Assembly: GCA_026418115.1 (NCBI GenBank)
Contig: JAOABY010000015.1
Location: 1-41,744 of the forward strand
Direction: 5' to 3'
Length of the DNA: 41,744 bases
Source of the DNA: Spirochaetaceae bacterium
Lineage (GTDB): Bacteria > Spirochaetota > Spirochaetia > Treponematales > Rectinemataceae
Part shown: positions 18,552 through 34,284 of the stretch, in pieces
Position numbering within the stretch: position 1 is the stretch's first letter
Layout of the letters: each line of letters begins with the position of its first letter
The notes under the pieces: model-generated
The model's database searches: none
What the model was told of the DNA's origin: nothing
What the model saw: only the letters and a program-made list of their open reading frames with translations
Made by a program: the position numbers and the translations under genes

Positions 18552-18755
18552 ATGAGATTGGTTATCAATGCCAGAGAAGAGCATTTTCCCCATGAGAGCA
18601 TGACCGTGCATGATCTGATCGAGCATCGCCGCTGCATGACTCCTTTCCTGCTCGTAAAGGTCAATGGGCAAGTCATCGAACGCACACGGCACGCCGATTG
18701 CATTTTGAAAGATGGTGACCAGGTGCTGCTCTTCAATCTTGTGGGTGGCGGATGA
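18552..18755 (+). CDS. ThiS/MoaD-like sulfur carrier protein 2
   Basis: 67 residues, the same length as its neighbour and 32/67 identical to it. Conserved parts are the first strand, MTVxDL, VKVNGxxxERT and the C-terminal LV-x-GG, here LVGGG. The ATG at 18552 follows the previous stop by 11 bases, and GAGGAG lies just upstream. Having two distinct carriers beside one activating enzyme suggests either two sulfur acceptors (for example thiamine and metallopterin) or a division of labour, which sequence cannot decide. About 20 bases after its stop begins the promoter of the asparagine leader. Confidence 0.83.
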   Translation: MRLVINAREEHFPHESMTVHDLIEHRRCMTPFLLVKVNGQVIERTRHADCILKDGDQVLLFNLVGGG

Positions 18756-18772: not shown

Positions 18773-18802
18773 TTGACAACCCCCTGGTGCATGCATTAAA
18801 AG
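18773..18802 (+). promoter_or_regulatory. Probable promoter of the asparagine attenuator
   Basis: A consensus -35 TTGACA (18773-18778) is followed after 18 bases by TAAAAG (18797-18802), a weak -10. This would start RNA near 18808-18811, at or just before the leader-peptide ATG, so the leader could be leaderless. Otherwise transcripts come from further upstream and use the AGGGA at 18801-18805. Confidence 0.5.
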
Positions 18803-18810
18803 GGATAGCA

Positions 18811-18897
18811 ATGAAACTGCATATTGGCTCCCTGAATAATCGCCTCAATAATAATCCCGACAGAATGGCGGGATCGGAGCCATGCATGCAGTCATGA
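18811..18897 (+). CDS. Asn-rich leader peptide of a transcription attenuator
   Basis: A 28-residue open frame (ATG 18811, TGA 18895-18897) with AGGGA five bases upstream. Five of its 28 residues are asparagine, grouped as LNNRLNNNPD at residues 8-17, and all are AAT codons. It is too short and too far from any family to be a functional enzyme. Its position between a promoter and a strong terminator, upstream of an asparagine-synthetase-like gene, marks it as a regulatory leader like those of trp and his operons. Scarce Asn-tRNA would stall the ribosome over bases 18835-18855. The stop codon lies about 15-25 bases after the antiterminator's left arm, as expected if a terminating ribosome masks it. 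Confidence 0.75.
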   Translation: MKLHIGSLNNRLNNNPDRMAGSEPCMQS

Positions 18898-18935
18898 AGT
18901 AGAGTGTCTGGCATGCAGAAGGCAAGGCCGGTCCC
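18826..18935 (+). promoter_or_regulatory. Attenuator RNA: protector (1:2) and antiterminator (2:3) pairings
   Basis: Segment 2 is GGGATCGGAGCC (18870-18881). It can pair with segment 1 in two blocks: GGCTCC (18826-18831) with GGAGCC (18876-18881), and ATCCC (18854-18858) with GGGAT (18870-18874). Alternatively, GGGATCGG (18870-18877) pairs with CCGGTCCC (18928-18935), eight pairs with one G-U, which is the left arm of the terminator. GCC (18879-18881) can then also pair with GGC (18921-18923). The Asn codons sit within segment 1. Confidence 0.7.
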
Positions 18936-18962
18936 GTTAGGGGCCGGCCTTTTTCTTTTTCT
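18925..18962 (+). terminator. Attenuator terminator (3:4) before the asparagine synthetase gene
   Basis: AGGCCGG (18925-18931) pairs with CCGGCCT (18944-18950) and CCC (18933-18935) with GGG (18940-18942), with a T-G pair between and a GTTA loop. TTTTTCTTTTTCT follows. This is a very stable hairpin between the leader peptide and the gene at 19181. Confidence 0.88.
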
Positions 18963-19180
18963 GCAGTGGTCCAGGCAGGCAGAAACGCGAGCTTCCAGGG
19001 GACCTTACAGTCCTTGCATGGACAGCCACACGGCAGGAGAAGACTGCGGGAGGTGCAGGGGATGTACGACAGACAACACATCCCCGGTGGCAATGGTGGT
19101 GTTGGAGTTTGACTGGCATCAGAAGCGGCGTTGCCGCGGCTATGCCGGCGCACGACATTCCATCCATCGAGGAATTTGCC

Positions 19181-20425
19181 ATGAGACAGTTCGAAAGCCT
19201 GCCCAGACAGGAAACCACCATCGGAGCATCCCTGGCTTCATTTCAGAAGCACCTGCAACAGTGCGGCACTTCATTTTCAGAGCATCTGCGTGCCGCCCAT
19301 GTGAATCGCTGGCAGAGCGACACGCTTCGCCATGCCCTCACGGTCAGGACAGCGTTGGTCCTAGGTTTGCAGGAATTTCTGGTAAGCCGTGGCATACTCA
19401 ACATCGATCGAGTCTCGCTGTCTCCTGTCACCGATCCGCTGTGTCATGATGTTGAGCACGTGCCTGTGATCTCGTATCAGGGTACCGCCTATCGCACTAC
19501 CCATTCGATGATCTACTCCAAAATGCTCGCCTGCGTTGCACCTGGCATCAAAGGCGTCTATATCGATTCACCCAACATACGACTGGAGCTTCCCTCTTCC
19601 AGCATGCGGGGCAAGTACCTCATCGATTTTTCCCAGATGGACATAGAAGTCAAACGCGCATCCATGCTCTCCGAAGATGACTATTTCGACCAGCCCGAAG
19701 CGATCGCCGCGTCGCTCGCCGAGGAAAGAGACCGTGCGCTCGATTTCTTTGAGGACATGATCATTCATGCAGTGCGGAAGATACTGGCTCTGGCCTCGGA
19801 GTCTCTTGAGGCACTTGGCGTGCAGCTTGCGATACCTGCTAAGCCCTTCCCGCGATTCTATAAGGACGAGGAGCCGGATCACCAGGATCCCATGCTCGAA
19901 GCCCGCCTGGGAGGCAAGGCGAAGGCGCAGTTCTTCTGGGTGCTGGGGCTTCTGAGGGAAAACTATGATCTGGTGTATCCCTATCTGCAGCGTGATGGGT
20001 CGAGAATAGCGAAATCATCAATCAGATCAAGGCAGGTGTACAACTATGACCTCTGCGCGGCACCACTGTATGCCGACGGCAGTCTGGGGAGAGCATACGA
20101 GGTGCTGTCTGGTGGGTTGCGTGAATGGGTCCATTCGGCAATCGTGGCAAGGCTGCTGGACAACGGCATACTGCAGGAACCGCCGCGCTTTGATGATTCC
20201 GGCAACATCCTCAACATGGAAGCGCTGGATGGCTACGGCCCATTTCTGGCGGTGACCGCGATGCGTGACAGTGATGGCAGGCCGATATTCCCCCAGACCT
20301 TTGGTGGCGGTCTTGGTATAGAGCGAACGCTGTTTGCGCTGCTGCACGGTCCACAAGCGCAGACAATCGACCAGCTGACCTGCTTCGGCAAGAACCCTGA
20401 CAGGGAGCTTCCTTTCCTGTTCTGA
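19181..20425 (+). CDS. AspRS/AsnRS-like stand-alone asparagine synthetase
   Basis: 414 residues from the ATG at 19181 (GAGGA seven bases upstream; ATGs at 19109 and 19142 have poorer sites). It has the class II aminoacyl-tRNA-synthetase core of the Asp/Asn group: motif 1-like TVRTALVLGLQEFLVSRGI with SPVTDP, the substrate region THSMIYSKML and YIDSPNIRLE, LIDFSQMDIEV, and motif 3 GGGLGIERTLFALL. The N-terminal OB-fold that binds the anticodon is absent. Such paralogs in archaea are ammonia-dependent asparagine synthetases that make Asn from Asp, ATP and NH3. The Asn-codon attenuator directly upstream independently supports asparagine formation. A tRNA-charging role is less likely without the anticodon domain. 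The 220-base region before the ATG holds an eight-pair hairpin (19058-19065 with 19078-19085) and no other gene that I can see. Confidence 0.78.
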   Translation: MRQFESLPRQETTIGASLASFQKHLQQCGTSFSEHLRAAHVNRWQSDTLRHALTVRTALVLGLQEFLVSRGILNIDRVSLSPVTDPLCHDVEHVPVISYQGTAYRTTHSMIYSKMLACVAPGIKGVYIDSPNIRLELPSSSMRGKYLIDFSQMDIEVKRASMLSEDDYFDQPEAIAASLAEERDRALDFFEDMIIHAVRKILALASESLEALGVQLAIPAKPFPRFYKDEEPDHQDPMLEARLGGKAKAQFFWVLGLLRENYDLVYPYLQRDGSRIAKSSIRSRQVYNYDLCAAPLYADGSLGRAYEVLSGGLREWVHSAIVARLLDNGILQEPPRFDDSGNILNMEALDGYGPFLAVTAMRDSDGRPIFPQTFGGGLGIERTLFALLHGPQAQTIDQLTCFGKNPDRELPFLF

Positions 20426-20558: not shown

Positions 20559-21821
20559 TCAATCCCAGTCCAGCAGCCTCCGCTGACCTTCGAGTGCGCG
20601 AAGCTCCGTAAGGTCCTGGCTGAATTCCAGGGTTCCCACGTACCTGCCCTGCGCATCGTAGAGTGCGTGGTATTCAATCAGGATGAATCTGCCGCCCATT
20701 TCGAGCCAGAATCTTGCCTTGCTTTTTTCCTTCTTTCTGAATGCTTCCAGTATTCTGTTGACGGTTGCGACCGATTTCTGAGGGTGGCAGTTCTGCACCG
20801 CCCGGCCGATGACAGCGGGGCTTCTGGGGAACAGCCGATGTGGCGAGTCGGAATAGTACACTACTCGATCCTGATCATCGACGATCGAAATATCCACTGG
20901 CATGGTCGTGAGTGCCAGATTGAGCAGCTCTCTGGGGACCTGCCCAGTAGCCAGCTCGAGGAGCGGCTGCACTGCAGTGTCTGCATCGCCTGGGGCGGGT
21001 ACCGGCGCTGAAGGAGCAGGCGCGGAACTACCTGGCTCTCCGGCCTTTCCTGGACCAATGGCTCCTGCCAGCACCAGATGAGGATCGTACAGCGCACCTG
21101 GCCTGATCCATGCAAATCCTATCGCGTCCTCGCCCAGTCTGATCTCGGCCCAATCCCGGTCGCTCAGACGGCGCTGTGCTTCCGGAAAGAGGATGTGCTC
21201 CTCCATGAAGATCATTCGGCTCATCGCGTGCACCAACTGATGCAGCACGCCTATTGCGGATTTGTCATGACGGCTGAGCCTCTGTCTGGCCTCCTTGAGC
21301 ATGGTGCGGATCTCATCGTGCTTGCCCCACATAACTCTTGAAGGGCCGGTAAACTGTACGCGCTCAAGATAGGGGAAGAGCTGGTTTTCCTTTCTGGTGT
21401 AATGGATGATGATCGGGGAGAGCGCTTCGAGTGCCTGGGCAACAGCATCAGCTTCGCCAAGTCCCAGACGCCAGGCGATCACAGCTTTTTTCAACGCCCT
21501 GATGTGTCTGCGTGCCTGTCGGTTTTCCTCCTGCATGGTGTGCAGCGGGTGTCCGGGGGTCGTCACGGATGTGCCGCTCTTCCCTAATGACGACCTGAAT
21601 ACCTCAACGTGCACCTCACAGAGTCTCTGGACTTCCTCGACGGGCATGCCGCCTTCGATCAGCGCCTGTTCCATTTCAGCGACTTCCGCAGCGCTCACGC
21701 CGTCAATGAGCCGTGCAAATTCCTTCTTGACTTCCGCAACCGGCTTCCCTGCATGCAGAGACTGTATGATGTGCTGAAGTCTGGCCTGTTTTTCCCTGTC
21801 GATTGTCAAATGTTCACTCAT
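20559..21821 (-). CDS. DUF438 / hemerythrin / PAS domain protein
   Basis: 420 residues. Residues about 20-90 match the DUF438 domain (a helical region with FARLIDGVSAAEVAEMEQALIEGG and LCEVHVEVF). Residues about 100-240 form a hemerythrin HHE-like four-helix domain with ligand-type residues in HPLHTMQEEN, HYTRKENQLFPYLE, WGKHDEIR and FMEEHILFPEA. A Pro/Ala-rich linker lies at about 265-290, and a PAS-like domain occupies about 305-415 (DISIVDDQDRVVYYSD, then NCHPQKS). Proteins with this order are thought to sense oxygen, nitric oxide or redox state in anaerobes, but their outputs are unknown. The ATG has GAGGAG seven bases upstream. It follows the FAD oxidoreductase on the same strand with a 57-base gap. 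Confidence 0.87.
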   Translation of the reverse strand: MSEHLTIDREKQARLQHIIQSLHAGKPVAEVKKEFARLIDGVSAAEVAEMEQALIEGGMPVEEVQRLCEVHVEVFRSSLGKSGTSVTTPGHPLHTMQEENRQARRHIRALKKAVIAWRLGLGEADAVAQALEALSPIIIHYTRKENQLFPYLERVQFTGPSRVMWGKHDEIRTMLKEARQRLSRHDKSAIGVLHQLVHAMSRMIFMEEHILFPEAQRRLSDRDWAEIRLGEDAIGFAWIRPGALYDPHLVLAGAIGPGKAGEPGSSAPAPSAPVPAPGDADTAVQPLLELATGQVPRELLNLALTTMPVDISIVDDQDRVVYYSDSPHRLFPRSPAVIGRAVQNCHPQKSVATVNRILEAFRKKEKSKARFWLEMGGRFILIEYHALYDAQGRYVGTLEFSQDLTELRALEGQRRLLDWD

Positions 21822-34083: not shown

Positions 34084-34090
34084 GAGGCCT

Positions 34091-34271
34091 GCCGAAGGAG
34101 GAGCGGTCCCCAAGAGTACCGCACATGAAGCGCCGGAAGCTGATGAAGGTGCGGGAAAGGGGAGGATCGCCGAAGGAGCAGTCATGGTTCCGGCAGGCTG
34201 TTCTTGGACGTCCGGGCTAATACCCGGCGGCTGTCGCGGGAATTCCACAGACCCGCGGAGCGCCTTGCGGC
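34091..34271 (+). ncRNA. Lysine riboswitch aptamer (L-box)
   Basis: About 181 bases, the normal size. P1 pairs GCCGAAGG (34091-34098) with CCTTGCGGC (34263-34271, one bulge). The hairpin GCGGT/ACCGC encloses the conserved CAAGAGTA (34111-34118). The core GAAAGGGG (34155-34162) followed by ATCGCCGAAGG (34166-34176) matches the Bacillus lysC leader, which has GAAAGGGGAGCGUCGCCGAAGC. GGCTGT and a CGCGGG/CCCGCG stem close the three-prime part. Binding of lysine would shut off the lysine biosynthesis genes that follow. Confidence 0.9.
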
Positions 34272-34284
34272 TGCCCATGATGCA

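Follow-up and report, generated by a model that had tools for sequence, protein, structure and literature searches.

The single-gene transcript of AS-AR, a predicted archaeal-type asparagine synthetase A, is very probably controlled in a Rectinema-like spirochaete by a ribosome-mediated transcription attenuator responsive to charged tRNA-Asn; from the sequence analyses presented below we place the probability of this reading at about 0.92. The window, by which we mean the whole stretch of 41,744 nucleotides that was analyzed, belongs to a draft genome (G000) of 2.17 Mb that is 96% complete. Within it, the regulatory cassette sits between thiS, which ends at 18755, and a 414-amino-acid gene at 19181-20425, and all features of the cassette lie on the forward (+) strand.

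The stalling, the termination and the response to asparagine that we infer would depend on alternative pairings among four regions of the leader RNA. When Asn-tRNA is plentiful, the translating ribosome would reach the stop codon of the leader and cover region 2, which would let region 3 pair with region 4, and RNA polymerase would stop near 18955. When Asn-tRNA is scarce, the ribosome would stall in the Asn run and cover region 1, such that regions 2 and 3 would pair, the terminator could not form and the synthetase would be made. Where the leader is not translated, the 1:2 and 3:4 pairings would both form and transcription would stop.

Layout and conservation of the leader cassette

The putative promoter (18773..18801) comprises, as read in the sequence, the -35 box TTGACA (18773-18778) named in the initial annotation and a weak -10 box, TTAAAA (18796-18801), separated by a 17-nt spacer. 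A simple promoter scan of the window did not report it because the -10 box is weak, and the promoter is supported by conservation rather than by consensus score, with TTGAC found 35-40 nt 5' of the leader ATG in 16/16 loci. Assuming the 17-nt spacer and initiation 6-7 nt beyond the -10 box, the transcript start is predicted at ~18807-18811, or 0-4 nt before the leader ATG, and spacing places it 0-4 nt 5' of the ATG in most other loci as well. No Shine-Dalgarno sequence precedes the leader ATG in genus members other than the window; the window has AAGGGA, which would fall at the predicted start or 5' of it. The leader ORF is probably translated from an essentially leaderless transcript. This ORF (18811..18897) has 28 codons, MKLHIGSLNNRLNNNPDRMAGSEPCMQS, and was correctly read in the initial annotation: its five Asn codons, all AAT, form two groups (AAT AAT, 18835-18840, and AAT AAT AAT, 18847-18855).

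To follow the cassette beyond the window, AS-AR orthologues were collected from relatives, the order, the phylum and GTDB species, with minus-strand loci reversed. Sixteen genomes with upstream sequence, all from one spirochaete clade, were compared: the window, L016, L017, L018, L019, L020, L021, L023, L024, L025, L026, L027, L082, L088, L091 and G014 (L194). An Asn-rich leader of 25-30 codons followed by a GC hairpin with a T-tract is found at 16/16 loci, and the cassette is kept while AS-AR identity falls to about 56%. The check that had been proposed, namely that relatives keep the Asn run and the competing stems while the rest drifts, is borne out for the leader, the Asn run and the terminator in all 16, among which no orthologue lacking the Asn codons or the stems was seen. 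Leaders from related loci include MARVFFGNNGNLLNNNAAPGAGPEPNI, MKRNANNVNLLNNNIRTAAAVPASRA, MSKSAPLVLRTNNNNNRTAAAAEPVPRA and MLKDILSAAIIINNNPNNNSKRCSRHWSFF; the weakest, that of L026 (MTKRALRQANLLNSNPTAAAAGPEPRA), has only three separated Asn codons. Inspection of L027 (genome G416, L122; 2566-2948) reveals two Asn-codon leader and terminator cassettes in tandem ahead of the same gene, the second of which contains DNNNF.

A protein tree was built from 79 rows, without the fragmentary L091, and in it the attenuator loci fill one clade with support of 100/100. The sole unlabelled row in that clade, L022, represents the gene of G014. That gene is cut by the start of its contig, and the G014 leader lies on another contig, 206 bases from its end. 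AS-AR loci of Desulfobacterota or Myxococcota MAGs, and those of Fibrobacterota and other spirochaete classes, have no Asn-rich ORF with a terminator. Likewise, none of about 40 asnB or asnS loci of relatives has an Asn-rich ORF with a terminator behind it; they come from a set of 45 in which L127, L131 and L164 were left uncounted for too little upstream sequence. A covariance model built from the genus leaders returned only these leaders below E 1e-6 across 394 genomes of the order, and the weaker matches that were inspected comprise, besides known leaders, plain terminators without an Asn ORF.

Codon usage in the leaders is distinct from that of the gene they precede. Asn accounts for 11-27% of codons in the leaders (9% in the leader of the second L027 cassette) versus 1-6% in the AS-AR genes. 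AAT and AAC occur at 67:25 in the leaders versus 48:108 in the AS-AR genes (Fisher p 1.3e-10), a preference for AAT that is also seen in GC-rich genomes (L026, L027) and that may reflect either slower decoding of AAU or the avoidance of pairing.

Whether these triplets act as codons at all bears directly on the mechanism. A/U-rich loops are common in RNA switches, and the protector hairpin does hold the Asn codons in its loop, so the AAT run might instead form the unpaired loop of a ligand- or protein-binding RNA switch. The reading frame makes this very unlikely: the Asn triplets share the frame of the ATG that follows TTGAC by 35-40 nt in 16/16 loci, whereas AAT repeats in the other frames would give Ile or stop. 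In addition, AAC and AAT interchange synonymously at leader Asn codons among loci, the Asn run shifts its place (GNNGNLLNNN, NNNNN, INNNPNNNS) with Asn retained, and no Rfam family reaches its gathering score at the leader. Some leader regulators act as ribosome-arrest peptides, whose own sequence stalls the ribosome in response to a small molecule. It is highly improbable that this is such a peptide, since outside the Asn residues the leader is not conserved between clades; parts of its C-terminal half are conserved in the genus, but there the codons coincide with RNA region 2, which accounts for that conservation.

It is scarcely credible, finally, that the hairpin is an ordinary terminator of thiS standing next to a chance small ORF. 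Strong terminators are common and thiS lies directly upstream, yet a promoter motif separates thiS from the ORF at a constant distance from the latter in all loci, and the ORF, the Asn run and the hairpin recur together in 16/16. For the attenuator, by comparison, the ORF, the Asn run and its frame, the promoter spacing and a covarying terminator are all established by sequence comparison.

Alternative pairings and ribosome position

The best single-strand fold of the window leader (-59.4 kcal/mol) combines a protector around the Asn codons with the terminator. In folding and in the genus consensus helix, region 1 (GGCTCC, 18826..18831) forms the 5' arm of the protector and pairs with GGAGCC at 18876-18881, such that the two arms flank the Asn codons and the 1:2 pairing encloses them. 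Folding assigns region 2 (GGCGGGATCGGAGCC, 18867..18881) to the 5' arm of the antiterminator; it overlaps the 3' arm of the protector and falls within the final codons of the leader ORF. Region 3 (CCGGTCCCGTT, 18928..18938) is common to the antiterminator, where it pairs with region 2, and the terminator, where it pairs with region 4. In the antiterminator, GGCGGGATCGG (18867-18877) pairs with region 3, and this 2:3 alternative has 10 contiguous pairs and 3 more, at -20.7 kcal/mol. The intrinsic terminator (18924..18960) consists of a 12-pair GC stem (18924-18951) and the T-tract TTTTTCTTTTT (18950-18960).

Each pairing was then judged by covariation or against shuffled sequence. The strong GC hairpin with T-tract that had been noted is well supported: across 15 loci, 95.7% of terminator cells are paired, 6/11 pairs have changed on both sides, and its covariation score was matched by 0/500 shuffles. 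The protector, also part of the initial annotation, holds up in the window (z -2.3, p 0.03 against dinucleotide shuffles), and the consensus fold of the genus recovers the 1:2 helix with changes on both sides. Taken jointly, protector and terminator are 94% paired in the genus with four pairs changed on both sides, a result equalled by 1/500 shuffles; outside the genus, pairing of the protector is weaker.

The antiterminator of the initial annotation stands for part of the clade. It surpasses dinucleotide shuffles in the window (z -3.1, p 0.010), and p is below 0.05 for the window, L017, L018, L019, L020, L082 and L091. In the genus, 90% of its cells are paired versus 33-54% when the arms are slid; covariation is uninformative there because the pairing barely varies. 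L019 carries a compensating change (GGAGCCGG/CCGGTTCC) seen in single-sequence analysis only, which alignment A2 missed because it places this sequence a base off in region 3. L091 is the most telling case: its regions 1, 2, 3 and 4 have changed together, with the terminator arm now GGCCGATGC and region 2 now GCATTGGTC, and a 12-pair antiterminator is kept (z -4.2). In L021 and L023-L027, by contrast, a mismatch or bulge interrupts the antiterminator, which is no better than shuffled sequence. The protector and antiterminator are thus demonstrated by sequence comparison within the genus, and the details of the mechanism have their best support in the genus and in L091, since the antiterminators of these six outside relatives are indistinguishable from shuffles. 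The compared sequences are related, and combined p-values overstate their independence.

To relate pairing to translation, the nascent leader up to region 3 was folded thermodynamically with an assumed footprint of the ribosome placed on each codon in turn. In the window, modelled 2:3 pairing is 0.73 with the ribosome at any position as far as the last Asn, codon 15; it stays at ~0.7 to codon 16 and is ~0 from there through the stop. The same modelled fall in 2:3 pairing is present in L091 and in all eight members of the genus. Averaged over all loci, modelled 2:3 pairing is 0.62 with the ribosome at Asn codons, compared with 0.36 at non-Asn codons; at the stop it is 0.14. L025-L027 agree partly with the model, and in L023, L024 and L194 the expected fall at the stop codon is absent. 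Because the model is thermodynamic, assumes the footprint and was applied to related sequences, the folding supports the mechanism and does not prove it.

The predicted target gene and a second short ORF

The gene downstream of the leader (19181..20425) is, by homology, an archaeal-type asparagine synthetase A related to AsnRS, in keeping with the asparagine-synthetase-like gene of the initial annotation. Its start is best placed at 19181; the frame has an alternative opening at a TTG, 19109. By sequence, the protein matches 1nnh (E 7e-16) and 3p8t over the catalytic AsnRS-like core, and the family profile matches archaeal AsnRS-related asparagine synthetase A at E 2.5e-17. An AlphaFold model of moderate confidence (pLDDT 69.6) retrieved 3rl6 and 3reu with Foldseek (E below 1e-8), together with AspRS or AsnRS chains. 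The protein belongs to a bacterial subfamily that also has members in Desulfobacterota and Fibrobacterota, and no Pfam family matches it at E 0.001. It scores under the NCBIfam equivalog cut-off for asparagine synthetase A (NF005054, 123 vs 309 bits) and, compared with the archaeal enzyme, contains a long insertion; synthesis of asparagine by AS-AR is therefore what we infer from homology.

In the genome, AsnRS is present (620 bits), while GatB, AsnA and an AsnB above cut-off (best 54 bits) were not found, absences that are provisional because the genome is a 96%-complete draft. From this combination, Asn-tRNA is likely to be supplied by free asparagine made by AS-AR, and it is Asn-tRNA that the leader ribosome would read. 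The transcript probably holds AS-AR alone, since the downstream neighbour (20559-21821) lies on the opposite strand. Elsewhere in the window, a lysine riboswitch at 34088-34273 (Rfam RF00168, 93.7 bits) precedes ORFs whose translations resemble aspartate-semialdehyde dehydrogenase, aspartate kinase and lysine-pathway genes.

Between the terminator and the gene lies a second short ORF with a Shine-Dalgarno sequence, MYDRQHIPGGNGGVGV (19062..19112, + strand), which is present in the window, L016-L021, L082, L088 and L194. Its homologues are MTERVCVPSGNGALFR-like and share an invariant Gly10-Asn11. The start codon lies inside a conserved hairpin, and a covarying stem (TTTGTTC/GAACAAA, TTTGGTT/AACCAAA, ATCGTTC/GAACGAT) comes after the ORF. 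The structured element of this ORF, captured in a model termed R2, was found at the AS-AR gene only, in the genus, and looser homologues of the ORF occur in L021 and G014. In folding models, the second ORF did not affect the AS-AR ribosome-binding site in a consistent way. A two-layer control by asparagine, in which the attenuator would be followed by the second ORF as a translational check, with the tandem attenuator of L027 in its place, is a tentative and rather doubtful proposal; it covers the genus and two further genomes.

Comparison with known systems

Known attenuators read trp, his, leu, thr, ilv, phe and cys codons. The initial annotation named none for asparagine. No asparagine attenuator was found in open-licence full texts, so that an earlier report in a subscription journal is possible, and no asparagine-specific attenuator family was found in Rfam. 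No earlier report of a ribosome-mediated attenuator in a spirochaete was found in the open-licence literature. T-box RNAs of asparagine genes also sense the charging of tRNA-Asn and can control termination; they bind the tRNA directly and have no leader ORF, in contrast to the cassette described here. No T-box covariance model matched the window leader or related loci, and no riboswitch or other Rfam leader family matched the cassette at gathering score. The best leader-family match was Thr_leader at 20.3 bits against a gathering threshold of 55; ar35, sbrA and Thr_leader gave low scores near the terminator that are far below their thresholds, and in ten related loci no Rfam leader family reached threshold.

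The mechanism of attenuation of the E. coli type has been modelled (PMC1183508). With the trp, his, leu, thr, ilv and phe attenuators, the present cassette shares a leader ORF with a run of the cognate codon; it has the same three alternative pairings and T-tailed terminator as attenuators of the E. coli type, and the same placement of the stop codon, by which a finishing ribosome would cover region 2. It differs from them in its asparagine codons, its spirochaete host and a leader ORF that starts at, or a few nt from, the predicted transcript start. The same principle operates outside Proteobacteria in trp, leu and ilv attenuators of Actinobacteria (PMC1262725) and in his leaders surveyed in Firmicutes (PMC2965389); neither comparative survey mentions asparagine or spirochaetes.

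The principle is classical, so the cassette does not represent a new type of system. Its novelty, as far as checked, lies in the asparagine specificity, in the group of hosts, in AS-AR as the target and in a start that is probably leaderless. The nearest precedent is provided by the leaderless polycysteine ORFs of mycobacteria, which Canestrari in 2020 reportedly described as attenuators (cited in PMC13236596). These ORFs reportedly share with the present cassette a run of a single amino acid and an amino-acid pathway operon downstream, and have no 5' UTR, as is probable here; the mycobacterial ORFs read cysteine and belong to Actinobacteria, whereas the present cassette has a strong intrinsic terminator and an antiterminator. 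The constant spacing from promoter to ATG suggests that attenuation can also make use of leaderless translation in bacteria other than Actinobacteria. The attenuator would control what appears to be the sole asparagine synthetase encoded in the genome and would therefore be a clean, testable sensor of Asn-tRNA. A natural attenuator reading asparagine would fill a gap in the known codon set and extend the mechanism to spirochaetes.
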